Of a DNA stretch of 64,000 nt, positions 1,307-47,454 are shown in pieces; the first letter of the stretch is position 1; the number at the start of each line of letters is the position of its first letter. Source of the stretch: Gammaproteobacteria bacterium (lineage in GTDB: Bacteria; Pseudomonadota; Gammaproteobacteria; Pseudomonadales; Pseudohongiellaceae); NCBI GenBank assembly GCA_018661465.1, contig JABJIC010000030.1, positions 1 to 64,000 of the forward strand. The letters run 5' to 3'. A model generated the notes under the pieces. It ran no database searches. It was not told the DNA's origin and saw only the letters and a list, made by a program, of their open reading frames with translations. Position numbers and translations under genes: made by a program.

Positions 1307-1764
1307 GCAGTTGTGGATTTGTTTCGACTGAATTCCGCAAACCAATTTTCAAGAATAATCTGAGCTGCTATATCGTCTATAGCAGCTCTTTTTTTTGTGT
1401 TGCCGTTTTCTTGATGAATTTTTTCAATAGCCTCTTTGGATGAAAGACGCTCATCCATTCCGTAGCAAGGAATTCCAAATCTTCCATTAAGTCGCTTGGC
1501 AAATTTTGTCGCTCTGACCAGTAGCTCGCTATCACTGCCATCTAAATTATAGGGAATACCCACTACGAAAATATCTGGCTTCCACTCCTCGAGCAGTTTT
1601 TGAATATCCTCCCAATCAGGAATGCCATCCTTTGCCTTTATGATGCTGACAGCTTTAGCGGAACCACTTATGCTTTGACCGAAGGCCACGCCGATACGTT
1701 GAGTGCCGTAGTCAAACGCGAGGGCGGAAACAAAATCCTGTTTGGGGAATTGATTAATAATCAC
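1300..1764 (-). CDS. ruvX: RuvX/YqgF family Holliday junction resolvase-like nuclease
   Basis: This 154-residue RNase H-fold protein belongs to the YqgF/RuvX family, linked to Holliday-junction resolution and to 16S rRNA 5'-end maturation. Visible motifs are FDYGTQRIGVAFG near the N-terminus (first catalytic Asp), VVGIPYNLDGS in the middle, MDERLSS, and the C-terminal IDDIAAQIIL with the last acidic residues. It is the last gene of a leftward set gshB-tonB-algH-ruvX and starts 8 bases after the algH stop, so it is almost certainly co-transcribed. This order is conserved in Pseudomonas-like bacteria, where pyrR and pyrB often follow; here convergent pilT follows instead. Slightly longer than the E. 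coli homologue. Confidence 0.93.
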   Translation of the reverse strand: MIINQFPKQDFVSALAFDYGTQRIGVAFGQSISGSAKAVSIIKAKDGIPDWEDIQKLLEEWKPDIFVVGIPYNLDGSDSELLVRATKFAKRLNGRFGIPCYGMDERLSSKEAIEKIHQENGNTKKRAAIDDIAAQIILENWFAEFSRNKSTTAV

Positions 1765-1772
1765 AGGCGTAT

Positions 1773-2351
1773 TCAGGAGTGTCCTGCTGCTGGAGAGATT
1801 TGTTCAAGATCTATACCGAGAATAGCGGCGGCTTTATTCGTTTTGGATTCATATTCGCGGGAGAAAATAAGTTCAGAGTTCGCCGGTGTAGTTAGCCAGG
1901 CGTTATCAGTAATCTCCTTTTCCAATTGACCTGCCTCCCATCCTGCGCAGCCTAGTGCTACCAGATAATTCTCGGGGCCTTTGCCTGATGCAATGTCTTC
2001 GAGTATGGTTTTTGAAGTGCAGATAGAAATTTCCGGGGTGATGGTGATGCTGGATTCCCAGGAGTCACCGGCATCATGAATAATAAAGCCCTTATCTTTT
2101 TCTACAGGGCCTCCGGCCAATACACGCATAGAGTCAAAATTAGTTTCGTTCTGCTTATATTCAATGCTCAGTTCTTGAAAAATATCGGCTACAGATGCCG
2201 ACAGAGGTTTATTGATAACAATACCCAAAGCGCCTTCTTCGTTGTGTTTCCACATATAGGTGACAGTGCTTGAAAAAAACGGATCTATCATCTGCGGCAT
2301 GGCGATGAGAAATTGGTTTTCCAAGTATCCCGTCGATTGTTGGTCATTCAT
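1773..2351 (-). CDS. algH: YqgE/AlgH family protein (UPF0301)
   Basis: The protein contains the family hallmarks FLIAMPQM near the start, the GALGIVINKPL segment, VLAGGPVEKDKGFIIH, and ALGCAGWEAGQLEKEI. The family is named after AlgH, a regulator of alginate synthesis in Pseudomonas, but its biochemical role is not settled. I place the start at the ATG at 2351 (MNDQQS), since homologues begin only a few residues before the FLIAMP motif; a TTG at 2363 would add four residues. It sits between tonB (85 bases upstream) and ruvX (8 bases downstream) in a conserved operon, so family assignment is firm even though function is not. Confidence 0.9.
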   Translation of the reverse strand: MNDQQSTGYLENQFLIAMPQMIDPFFSSTVTYMWKHNEEGALGIVINKPLSASVADIFQELSIEYKQNETNFDSMRVLAGGPVEKDKGFIIHDAGDSWESSITITPEISICTSKTILEDIASGKGPENYLVALGCAGWEAGQLEKEITDNAWLTTPANSELIFSREYESKTNKAAAILGIDLEQISPAAGHS

Positions 2352-2448
2352 TGGCGAGAACAATCCAGGTCAGAATTCATTTAAATAGTTTGAAAAATTC
2401 TCCAGTATTTAGCTGGGACATTTCTCTAGTTTCAGGAAACTATATTCG

Positions 2449-3324
2449 CTAATAGCTTGTTAGAGCGTTTCCTTCGTGGAAACGCCAGGTACGAATTATT
2501 TCCAGTATATCAGTTTCGGCTCGCATTTCCTCGGGGAAAGGCTGGTAGGGAGCTGCTAGCCTGACAATCTCAATGGCGGCTTGGTCGAGGATGCTGTGTC
2601 CGGAAGATTGAAGAATACTAACTTCTTGCAATTCACCTTCTGGCAAAATTGCCACCAACATCCGCAGGCTGCCATATAGTTGCTGTTGTCGAGCCTGTGC
2701 TGGGTAATTAATATTTCCCACCGCTTCAATACGCCGTCGCCAATTATCAAGATAGCGTGCGTCTTCGCTGCGTCGGGTTGAGGCTGAAGAAATAGTGTAT
2801 TTTCTGGGTCGTTTTGCATAAGCCTCACGGCGAAGATCTAGCTGGGCTTGCAAGCTGGCAATTGCCAAGCTAATTTCTTGTGATGTGGCCTGTTCGGTAA
2901 GTACCGGTTTCTCTTCTGGCTCAAGTTCTTCTAATTGCTGTTGAACCTGTGCATTGTCTTCGAAGCTGGATACTACAGCGATGTCTTGTACTTGGACTTC
3001 GTTGTCTACTTCGGGCGCTTGAGGAATTGGTAGAACTTCCTGAATAGTGTCATCGTTGAAGTCAGATTCAAATGGTGTGCTTGGCGCGGCTGCTGAATCC
3101 AGTGTGCCGCTACCAAGCTGGTTTTCCTGAGCAAGGAAATCTGCTTCATCAGGGGCGAGCTCACTGCGATATTGAGCCATTGTTATTTCCAGAGAAGGCT
3201 CACTGTTAATTTCTTCAAGGTAAGTGAAGCCAACACCCAAAATAATAATAGCGTGGGCGCAAAGAGAAAGAAAAACGGTAAACCCGAATCGCTCTCTTGA
3301 AAGATCGTCATCGCTCGACGACAT
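2449..3324 (-). CDS. tonB: TonB-like energy transducer
   Basis: This 291-residue protein has a short cytoplasmic N-terminus, one membrane helix at about residues 15-36, a long periplasmic acidic spacer rich in Glu, Gln and Pro, and a C-terminal TonB domain with the YPAQARQQQLYGSLRMLVAI stretch followed by a Ser/Ile-rich end. TonB links the ExbB-ExbD proton motor to outer-membrane receptors. The spacer is unusually acidic and glutamine-rich instead of the Lys-Pro/Glu-Pro repeats of E. coli TonB. It lies between gshB and algH as in Pseudomonas, where this copy is a secondary TonB; no exbB or exbD is nearby. The assignment as a TonB-family protein is firm, but which receptors it serves is unknown. 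Confidence 0.87.
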   Translation of the reverse strand: MSSSDDDLSRERFGFTVFLSLCAHAIIILGVGFTYLEEINSEPSLEITMAQYRSELAPDEADFLAQENQLGSGTLDSAAAPSTPFESDFNDDTIQEVLPIPQAPEVDNEVQVQDIAVVSSFEDNAQVQQQLEELEPEEKPVLTEQATSQEISLAIASLQAQLDLRREAYAKRPRKYTISSASTRRSEDARYLDNWRRRIEAVGNINYPAQARQQQLYGSLRMLVAILPEGELQEVSILQSSGHSILDQAAIEIVRLAAPYQPFPEEMRAETDILEIIRTWRFHEGNALTSY

Positions 3325-45937: not shown

Positions 45938-46618
45938 CTAGCTTACCCAGCCTCCTGAGAGAGGTATCAACTGTCCAACCATGTGAGAGCAGTTTTCACT
46001 TGCTAGATAGGCAGCCAGTTCGGCTGTTTCTTCAGCTGCGCCGATTTTATTTGTGGGCACATTGCGTTTCACATGTTCAAGAAATTTCTCGTTGTCGAGT
46101 ATGTCATCGGGGTAATAAGTATTGTTGTTGATGTAGTTTTGCGCGATGGCATTTACCTGAATATTACTTCTGGCCAATTCAAGACCAACAGCCTTAATGA
46201 ATCCATTTTGCGCCCCACGCGCGGCGCAGTAAGCGGCATTATTAGCAATTCCTTTTAAAGGAGCTGCGCTGGTAATGGCTATTATCTTTCCAGACTTTCT
46301 TTCCAGCATCTGCGGAGTCACAGCACGCACCAAATACATAAGTGGATGTACCAGAGAGTCGAAGAGTTTATTCCAGTCTTCATTTTCTATATTTTGAACC
46401 GGACCAGTCATAGGTGGCTCAGCAAGATTGGCGACGAGGATATCTATATTCCCCGCGTTTTTTATAAGAGAGTTAGCTTCAGCTTCACTTGTCATCGAGC
46501 TATTGTCGCAGATTACATTCAGGCCCAAGCTCTCAAATTTTTCCTTGATAGCCATGCCCATGTATTTTTCAATACAGGTAATTAATACTGTGCGCTTGCG
46601 TGTATTTTCTTGAGTCAT
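45938..46618 (-). CDS. Halohydrin dehalogenase (SDR-fold, no cofactor)
   Basis: This 226-residue protein has an SDR fold but not the SDR chemistry. The glycine-rich NAD motif TGxxxGxG is replaced by Thr14-Cys-Ile-Glu-Lys-Tyr19-Met-Gly21, which is the halohydrin-dehalogenase nucleophile-site signature T-x4-Y/F-x-G. The catalytic triad reads Ser117, Tyr130 and Arg134 with the S-x12-Y-x3-R spacing and an Arg in place of the usual Lys. Both signatures together define this enzyme class, which expels halide from vicinal haloalcohols to give epoxides and opens epoxides with halide, cyanide, azide or nitrite. Its end is 8 bases from mct, convergent; the selenoprotein gene lies 40 bases upstream on the same strand. 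The physiological substrate is unknown. Confidence 0.85.
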   Translation of the reverse strand: MTQENTRKRTVLITCIEKYMGMAIKEKFESLGLNVICDNSSMTSEAEANSLIKNAGNIDILVANLAEPPMTGPVQNIENEDWNKLFDSLVHPLMYLVRAVTPQMLERKSGKIIAITSAAPLKGIANNAAYCAARGAQNGFIKAVGLELARSNIQVNAIAQNYINNNTYYPDDILDNEKFLEHVKRNVPTNKIGAAEETAELAAYLASENCSHMVGQLIPLSGGWVS

Positions 46619-46658: not shown

Positions 46659-47276
46659 CTAAGCTTCAATTCCTTTTTCCTGCATCAAATGCAGTACAAA
46701 TTTTTCCAAGGTCTCGTAGGGTTGGCAGCCTACTACTACCAGATCGTCGCAATAGAATGTTGGAACACCACTGACACCAGATTCTCTAGACCGTTGCCAG
46801 TCTTCATCAATCTGATTCTTGAATTCCCGGTTTTCCAAAACTTTTCGAGCAGCTTCACTATCGAGGCCGATAGATTGTGCAACCTCCACAAGCTCATCAA
46901 TATTACTTATGTTTCGATTCTCGAGGAAATAGGCCTTGTACAACTTGTCATGGATGGCATCTCCACCGTCTTGAGTATCTGCCCATTTTCCCAACTCCTG
47001 TGCAAGGCGGGAATTATAGGTGTGGGTCCTGTCTCCATAGGGAAGTCCGGCATCTTGCATCAGAGCTTTCATCCTTTCCCTCATAGGCGTTATGTCCCTG
47101 CCGGCAAATAATTCTTCCAGAGATTTCCCCTCTGGTGGCGTTTCCGGGTGTAGGGGGAAGTGCACCCAGTTAATCTTAACTGGATAATTTTCCTGCAATT
47201 TTTCAATACTCACGGTACTGAGATAACACCAGGGTCAGACGTAGTCGGTAAAAACGTCCAATGTTATTTGACTCAT
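46659..47276 (-). CDS. DsbA/FrnE-family oxidoreductase, selenoprotein with UPWC active site
   Basis: The true start is ATG 47276 after GAGGA. The 205-residue product reads MSQITLDVFTDYV, then an in-frame TGA at 47235-47237 (codon 14), then PWCYLSTVSIEKLQ and a complete DsbA-like fold with SGVPTFYCDD (cis-Pro) near the end. In DsbA/FrnE proteins codon 14 is the first Cys of the CxxC motif, so TGA encodes selenocysteine (UPWC). The frame on both sides is conserved and uninterrupted elsewhere. A SECIS-like hairpin follows at the right spacing. Automated calls would start at GTG 47213 and lose the active site. It is upstream of the halohydrin dehalogenase. It may also be a 2-hydroxychromene-2-carboxylate isomerase-like oxidoreductase. 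Confidence 0.85.
47206..47224 (-). promoter_or_regulatory. Bacterial SECIS-like hairpin after the UGA codon
   Basis: Downstream of the UGA, stem CTCA (47219-47222) pairs with TGAG (47209-47212) around the 6-base loop GTACCG, with two more A-T pairs below a bulged T. The first loop base is G, 16 bases after the UGA. This fits known bacterial SECIS rules (small loop, G in its first two bases, 16-37 base spacing). Confidence 0.65.
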
Positions 47277-47454
47277 AGCTTCCTCGCGGCGTGCCTCATT
47301 ATTGGGCATATTTGACTGTCTATACTCCAAATATAGAACAATGGAGGTATACTCCGATACTGCTTTTGTCTTGGGATTGTATCAAGAAGGCATTAATTGA
47401 ATTGAGAGTTTGATGCTGAGACGAGTGAACTAACAACAACACAGGGACAGCTCT

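Follow-up and report, generated by a model that had tools for sequence, protein, structure and literature searches.

The reverse-strand locus at 46659-47276 raises the question of whether a gene interrupted by an in-frame TGA is a broken gene or a gene for a selenoprotein. The window, i.e., the whole stretch of DNA that was analysed, is 64,000 nt long. Judging from its sequence and from that of its relatives, the apparently stop-broken gene almost certainly encodes a functional redox enzyme that contains selenium and belongs to a known family.

The interrupted gene and its predicted product

The frame starts with ATG at 47276, reads MSQITLDVFTDYV, then TGA, then PWCYLST, and is open until TAG at 46661-46659, as the preliminary description had laid it out; 191 residues were counted from PWCYLST to the TAG. 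The good ribosome site claimed for this start was found as GAGGA, 4 bases upstream of the ATG. The features of the gene are:

46659-47276, reverse strand: gene of the predicted FrnE/DsbA-family selenoprotein, 205 codons plus TAG stop
47281-47285, reverse strand: GAGGA, likely ribosome-binding site of ATG 47276, read from the sequence
47235-47237, reverse strand: TGA codon, predicted Sec14, the U of UPWC
47226-47228, reverse strand: Cys17, second residue of the UxxC pair
46725-46727, reverse strand: Cys184, extra Cys past the last strand, within VGCQPYE, present in 28/28 genus Sec proteins

When the TGA is taken as a residue, the product is a protein of 205 residues with a match to the Pfam DSBA family (PF01323, E 4.3e-35). 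Among solved structures, the closest in sequence are those of Deinococcus radiodurans FrnE (E 1.3e-21) and of SCO1869. The AlphaFold (AF2) model, computed with a 45-sequence alignment, has a mean pLDDT of 96.1, and its fold matches FrnE (5co3, TM 0.92) and SCO1869 (TM 0.86), and more weakly YjbH, HCCA isomerase, and kappa-class glutathione transferase (TM 0.67-0.78). FrnE is thus nearest by both sequence and fold, and the DsbA/FrnE assignment made at first sight holds. Of the 28 genus orthologues, 23 entered the protein alignment (A2), together with 22 of the 80 relatives (best 80 of 113). Positions 14 and 17 are invariant in these 45 proteins, and so is Pro172, the DsbA cis-Pro recognised earlier, for which the cis state is taken from the family. 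With a DSBA domain, a CxxC-type site, and this Pro172, the protein falls into the FrnE subfamily. The first predicted strand of the model begins at residue 4, which would leave no room for a signal peptide.

The C-terminal CxxxxC is absent from the window protein, according to the protein sequence and the 45-row alignment. In D. radiodurans FrnE this motif is thought to be used for regeneration, and it is present in many members, but not in all (PMC8945050). By analogy, Cys184 could do a similar job. The column of Cys184 holds A, F, or Y in 22/22 aligned non-genus rows, and its GC[QRH] pattern was found in 0/80 other relatives (best 80 of 113), the three Sec forms from outside the genus included, of which L121 ends before that point. 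The Gly-Ala of thioredoxin that matches the Cys184 site presumably lines the substrate groove.

Rfam and tRNA scans over the window gave no matches. A mechanical scan for other TGA-interrupted frames within the window returned seven candidates, which were viewed by eye; the target gene is not among them, presumably because another TGA stands upstream in its frame. On the reverse strand, the region between the selenoprotein gene and a divergent TPR gene contains two copies of GGAGTATA (47321-47328 and 47348-47355) at a distance of 27 bases, possibly an operator or promoter element.

The TGA codon, its hairpin, and the Sec machinery

The genus set consisted of 37 genomes (G000-G036) among the 58 searched. 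Full-length orthologues of the gene are present in 28 of the 37 (59-100% identity), with a decayed copy in G010 and none in the other eight. All 28 have TGA at the same codon. In the best 80 of 113 named relatives, the Sec position is coded by TGT in 41, TGC in 36, and TGA in 3, which agrees with Sec at the first Cys of CxxC, as had been proposed; these 77 Cys codons in 80 are no unbiased Sec/Cys ratio, since the list is biased (it is the best 80 of 113, one of the six peptides used as queries had Cys in place of Sec, and some records close to the window's genome may be missing). The three non-genus TGA carriers are a Pseudomonadales MAG (L044), a Granulosicoccaceae MAG (L070), and the Gammaproteobacteria SZUA-142 (L121). 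Among 369 genomes drawn evenly from the class, six besides G000 matched at E 1e-25, with an internal stop in 0/6.

Synonymous identity, i.e., the fraction of identical codons over sequence pairs sharing the amino acid, is 0.79 in codons +1 to +11 past the TGA and 0.55 in codons -13 to -1. Past codon +11, its mean over 172 windows of 11 codons, which overlap, is 0.395 (sd 0.045, max 0.489). The same gene terminates with TGA in 8/28 genus orthologues, and a reassigned TGA code was ruled out for that reason. Judged by this conservation, the TGA at 47235-47237 is under selection as a sense codon.

That the gene is a pseudogene or a sequencing error, with TGA as a real stop or an artefact, would accord with the standard reading, which stops at the TGA, and decay is possible for this gene, as its relic in G010 shows. 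The reading is refuted by 31 genes from different genomes (28 of the genus and 3 outside it) that have TGA at this codon and protein-like conservation on both sides of it, and we regard its probability as negligible; sequencing error, which the preliminary description had named as a possible objection, is thereby excluded. Translation from the internal GTG at 47213 would give a 184-aa protein without the active site, and this 184-aa ORF is what a mechanical caller lists. That codon is GTA in 6/28 genus orthologues and GGG in L044 and L121, the residues ahead of the TGA are conserved as protein, and such a start would lose strand 1 and both UxxC residues. On the codon changes the GTG start, doubted from the beginning, was ruled out, and we consider it very improbable. 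Reading through the TGA from ATG 47276 is preferred.

Three further loci have sequences of a related kind. L133 (G010:C185) is the decayed selenoprotein gene, with a stop aligned to the Sec position and an intact halohydrin dehalogenase gene adjoining. L136 (G039:C20) is a distant FrnE relative (29% identity) in which the Trp position of CPWC is an in-frame TGA (CP*C); its genome belongs to the same order and has SelA. A mutation, an error, or another Sec site are possible there. L046 has, at about 1000-1050, a Cys-form gene with the SECIS-like stretch CTCAATACCGGGCGCATCGA, which may be left over from a Sec-to-Cys change.

In the tree of 108 proteins (28 genus orthologues and 80 relatives, best 80 of 113; SECIS-coded residues included), the label Sec needs two changes, owing to L070. 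The genus, L044, and L121 form one group with support of 93/66, and L070 comes out basal to a Cys group that is mostly alphaproteobacterial, with support of 100/97. The AU test weakly rejects a single clade of all Sec forms (p 0.03). The branch of L070 is long, yet nearly all of its SECIS nucleotides are common with the other Sec genes. Two gains, a transfer, or an early Sec with losses are possible histories.

The element predicted to recode the UGA is:

47203-47221, reverse strand: SECIS hairpin with a stem of 7 bp and a loop of 5 nt (CGUGA, G in second place), 20 nt past the UGA

The hairpin sequence TCAGTAC-CGTGA-GTATTGA (47221-47203) is conserved, and it is also the minimum-energy fold. 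RNAalifold on the 31 Sec genes (28 genus and 3 outside) returned one stem, columns 17-23 with 29-35, and this stem is intact in 31/31 genes, with 217/217 cells paired. Two stem pairs vary among the 31 genes, one as G-U/A-U/G-C and the other as C-G/U-G. No double compensatory change was found in the stem among the 31 genes, and the covariation score was not above that of shuffles (467/500 as high); support for the stem therefore comes from synonymous-site conservation and conserved pairing, not from covariation. The limits for bacterial SECIS elements given in a 2026 review (PMC13188914) are a loop of 3-9 nt, a stem of 4-16 bp, G in the first two loop positions, a spacing of 16-37 nt, and an MFE of -7.5 or below. 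With a 5-nt loop, a 7-bp stem, G at the second loop position, a spacing of 20 nt, and -11.1 kcal/mol on 45 nt (with flanks, z -2.41), the hairpin is inside these limits; its energy without the 3' flank is -5.8 on 40 nt. The preliminary description had drawn another hairpin (CTCA-GTACCG-TGAG, 4 bp, G first in the loop, 16 nt past the TGA). That stem is drawable, and it was dropped once the 31 Sec genes were aligned, being broken in 9/31 with 91.1% of cells paired, so that the SECIS rules invoked for it are followed by the 47221-47203 hairpin instead. No convincing further gene with the same SECIS was found in the genome, where the next matches have E 0.16 and 0.22.

A search for selA, selB, selD, and selC, which the preliminary description had expected in this genome, found all four. 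In the window's own genome (97.7% complete), SelA (539.8 bits) and SelB (402.2 bits, cut-off 242.25) are coded on contig C15, and SelD (272.5 bits, cut-off 125) and tRNA-Sec (score 64.9, gathering 47, anticodon TCA) on contig C16. SelA is present in 23/28 gene-carrying genomes and in 9/9 other genus genomes, and SelB is above its cut-off in 23/28 carriers. Among the carriers, SelA was not found in G005, G008, G017, G019, and G024 (5/28), and SelB above the cut-off not in G001, G005, G008, G016, and G019 (5/28); all of these are draft assemblies, G024 being 99% complete, and G005, G008, and G019 lack both. SelA was also detected in 3/3 non-genus Sec genomes, in one as a contig-end fragment, and in 8/21 sampled Cys-form genomes, so its presence does not force the Sec form of the gene. 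The SelD of the window's genome makes up the C-terminal portion of a 784-aa ORF (L041, 1390-3744, reverse strand), and the N-terminal portion is, by eye, similar to an NADH-dehydrogenase-type oxidoreductase. At L003, tRNA-Sec (1500-1595) is directly followed by an ORF (1694-3091) that looks like a tyrosine-recombinase integrase, which suggests selC as an integration site there.

The conserved TGA, the Cys alternatives, the hairpin, the machinery, the predicted fold, and the gene neighbourhood, as read from the sequences, point with very little doubt to an FrnE-type Sec oxidoreductase (U14-P-W-C17) whose UGA is recoded via the 47221-47203 hairpin and whose gene is probably co-expressed with that of a dehalogenase. 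We infer that SelB with Sec-tRNA binds the hairpin and decodes the UGA at 47235-47237; without this decoding, the peptide would end after 13 residues. The product would probably be a cytoplasmic thioredoxin-fold oxidoreductase of FrnE type, a reductase or isomerase with Sec14 as the nucleophile. By the chemistry of the family, Sec14 would attack a disulfide or another oxidised substrate, Cys17 would resolve the selenenylsulfide, and Cys184 may act as a third redox thiol. The original observation is thus confirmed, and its interpretation is supported as essentially right, with the hairpin alone wrong in detail.

The halohydrin dehalogenase gene downstream

The gene that follows, probably co-expressed with the selenoprotein gene, starts 40 bases downstream of it and codes for a protein of the SDR fold:

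45938-46618, reverse strand: predicted halohydrin dehalogenase (SDR superfamily), likely in the same operon
46574-46576, reverse strand: Cys15 of the dehalogenase, inside the nucleophile-pocket motif T-X4-F/Y-X-G
46226-46228, reverse strand: Cys131 of the dehalogenase, inside the catalytic Y-X3-R motif

Halohydrin dehalogenases are told from other SDRs by the motifs T-X4-F/Y-X-G and S-X12-Y-X3-R (PMC4989007), which in the window protein are TCIEKYMG and SAAPLKGIANNAAYCAAR, respectively. The best PDB matches are 8xxb and 7b73, the latter being HheD2 (PMC9629495), and then HheB. With both diagnostic motifs present, the gene is identified as that of a halohydrin dehalogenase, its activity being predicted. 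Such an ORF follows the selenoprotein gene, inside the 1.5-kb flank, in 18/28 loci, and tblastn gave the same 18. Both motifs are present in 18/18 adjacent copies; two of three further copies have them exactly, and G012 has S for T. Cys15 and Cys131 are present in all 21 copies (18/18 adjacent and 3/3 further) and absent from the five aligned PDB sequences. The stop of the selenoprotein gene overlaps the inferred dehalogenase start in 6/28 loci, as TGATG in five and ATGA in one. In G012 and G025, a long opposite-strand ORF is situated between the two genes.

A dehalogenase orthologue (E 1e-30 or better) is present in 21/58 genomes, all of the genus (21/37). In each of the 21, judged by the coordinates, the selenoprotein gene is less than 5 kb away on the contig of the dehalogenase, intact in 20 and as the relic in G010. 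In 8/28 selenoprotein genomes, most of them incomplete assemblies, the search at E 1e-30 did not detect the dehalogenase, nor does it adjoin the gene. With the window dehalogenase as tblastn query at 1e-10, matches were limited to genus loci, and none was found in the loci of the 80 non-genus relatives (best 80 of 113). The 14 largest neighbourhood clusters of these 80, from 636 ORFs, include no dehalogenase and are mostly SAR116 synteny; one of the 14 is an ordinary SDR with a glycine-rich motif.

The selenoprotein would fairly probably act as a general cytoplasmic disulfide reductase or isomerase in oxidative or metal stress, similar to D. radiodurans FrnE, with the dehalogenase as a mere neighbour. 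The closest solved relatives are FrnE, a mutant with FrnE disrupted shows sensitivity to cadmium and diamide (PMC8945050), and no dehalogenase was detected in those 8/28 gene-carrying genomes; the gene overlap and the one-way co-occurrence with the dehalogenase, on the other hand, suggest a closer tie. The alternative would be a dedicated redox partner, which reduces or forms a disulfide or an oxidised thiol at Cys15/Cys131 of the dehalogenase and so switches or repairs it. A redox link between the two proteins is plausible from the extra Cys184 of the selenoprotein, from the selenoprotein gene within 5 kb in 21/21 dehalogenase genomes, from the overlap in 6/28 loci, and from the two active-site-motif Cys present in 21/21 copies and in none of the five PDB sequences. 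Against it are the 8/28 selenoprotein genomes, mostly incomplete assemblies, in which the dehalogenase was not found, and the 80 non-genus loci (best 80 of 113) with no dehalogenase neighbour by tblastn at 1e-10, and the decayed selenoprotein gene of G010 beside an intact dehalogenase speaks against strict dependence. On balance, a dedicated partnership is considered unlikely, and the role of a general reductase is preferred.

The furthest-reaching reading, a two-gene selenium-dependent halohydrin/epoxide module in which the Sec-FrnE protein would control or repair the dehalogenase via C15/C131 with a relay of Sec14, Cys17, and Cys184, is quite unlikely. If it were true, a halohydrin dehalogenase would here be under a redox switch, and a DsbA-like selenoprotein would have a dedicated client; we are aware of no precedent for the one or the other. 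Little is known of what D-type halohydrin dehalogenases do in nature.

Relation to known systems

The preliminary description had called the gene a hidden selenoprotein. This is fair for the gene itself, but DsbA-like UxxC selenoproteins are an already published family. Nine such sequences (COG2761) were found in Sargasso Sea data (PMC2398784), the group has been listed since 2005, with one form more abundant in marine samples, and it is included in recent tables (PMC13188914, PMC9312934). Published names are "DsbA 1" of the GOS selenoproteome and "DsbA-like form 1" in the 2026 review. The kind of selenoprotein is thus already known, and its halohydrin dehalogenase neighbour is apparently unreported: the literature search, in the text it covered, found no description of the pairing, and halohydrin dehalogenase was paired with selenocysteine in one Rhodococcus genome paper, with a single mention of either; in a looser search, the dehalogenase term was in none of the matches listed.

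The analysis resolves a gene model that would probably come out truncated in automatic annotation, and the position of its SECIS hairpin is corrected to 47221-47203. DsbA-like selenoproteins, for which the cited passages of published descriptions name no partners, gain a concrete and testable neighbour, and the two extra active-site Cys suggest a redox angle for halohydrin dehalogenase.

Compared by description, the window protein is similar to the DsbA-like UxxC selenoprotein (COG2761/PF01323) in its Pfam family, in U at the first Cys of CxxC, and in its bacterial SECIS; a dehalogenase neighbour and a third Cys are unmentioned in the cited passages of those descriptions. With D. radiodurans FrnE (5cnw, 5co3) it shares the fold (TM 0.92), and CPWC of FrnE aligns to UPWC, but it has Sec at the first Cys and Cys184 instead of the C-terminal CxxxxC. 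The Cys forms of the same subfamily, from Rhodospirillales, SAR116, and Desulfofustis, are about 40-56% identical and have CPWC, with a Cys codon, no Cys184, and, by eye, a hairpin sequence that is not kept. The dehalogenase has both motifs in common with HheD2 (7b73) and HheB (4zd6), with PDB matches of 187 and 153 bits, and differs from them in the two extra Cys inside these motifs.
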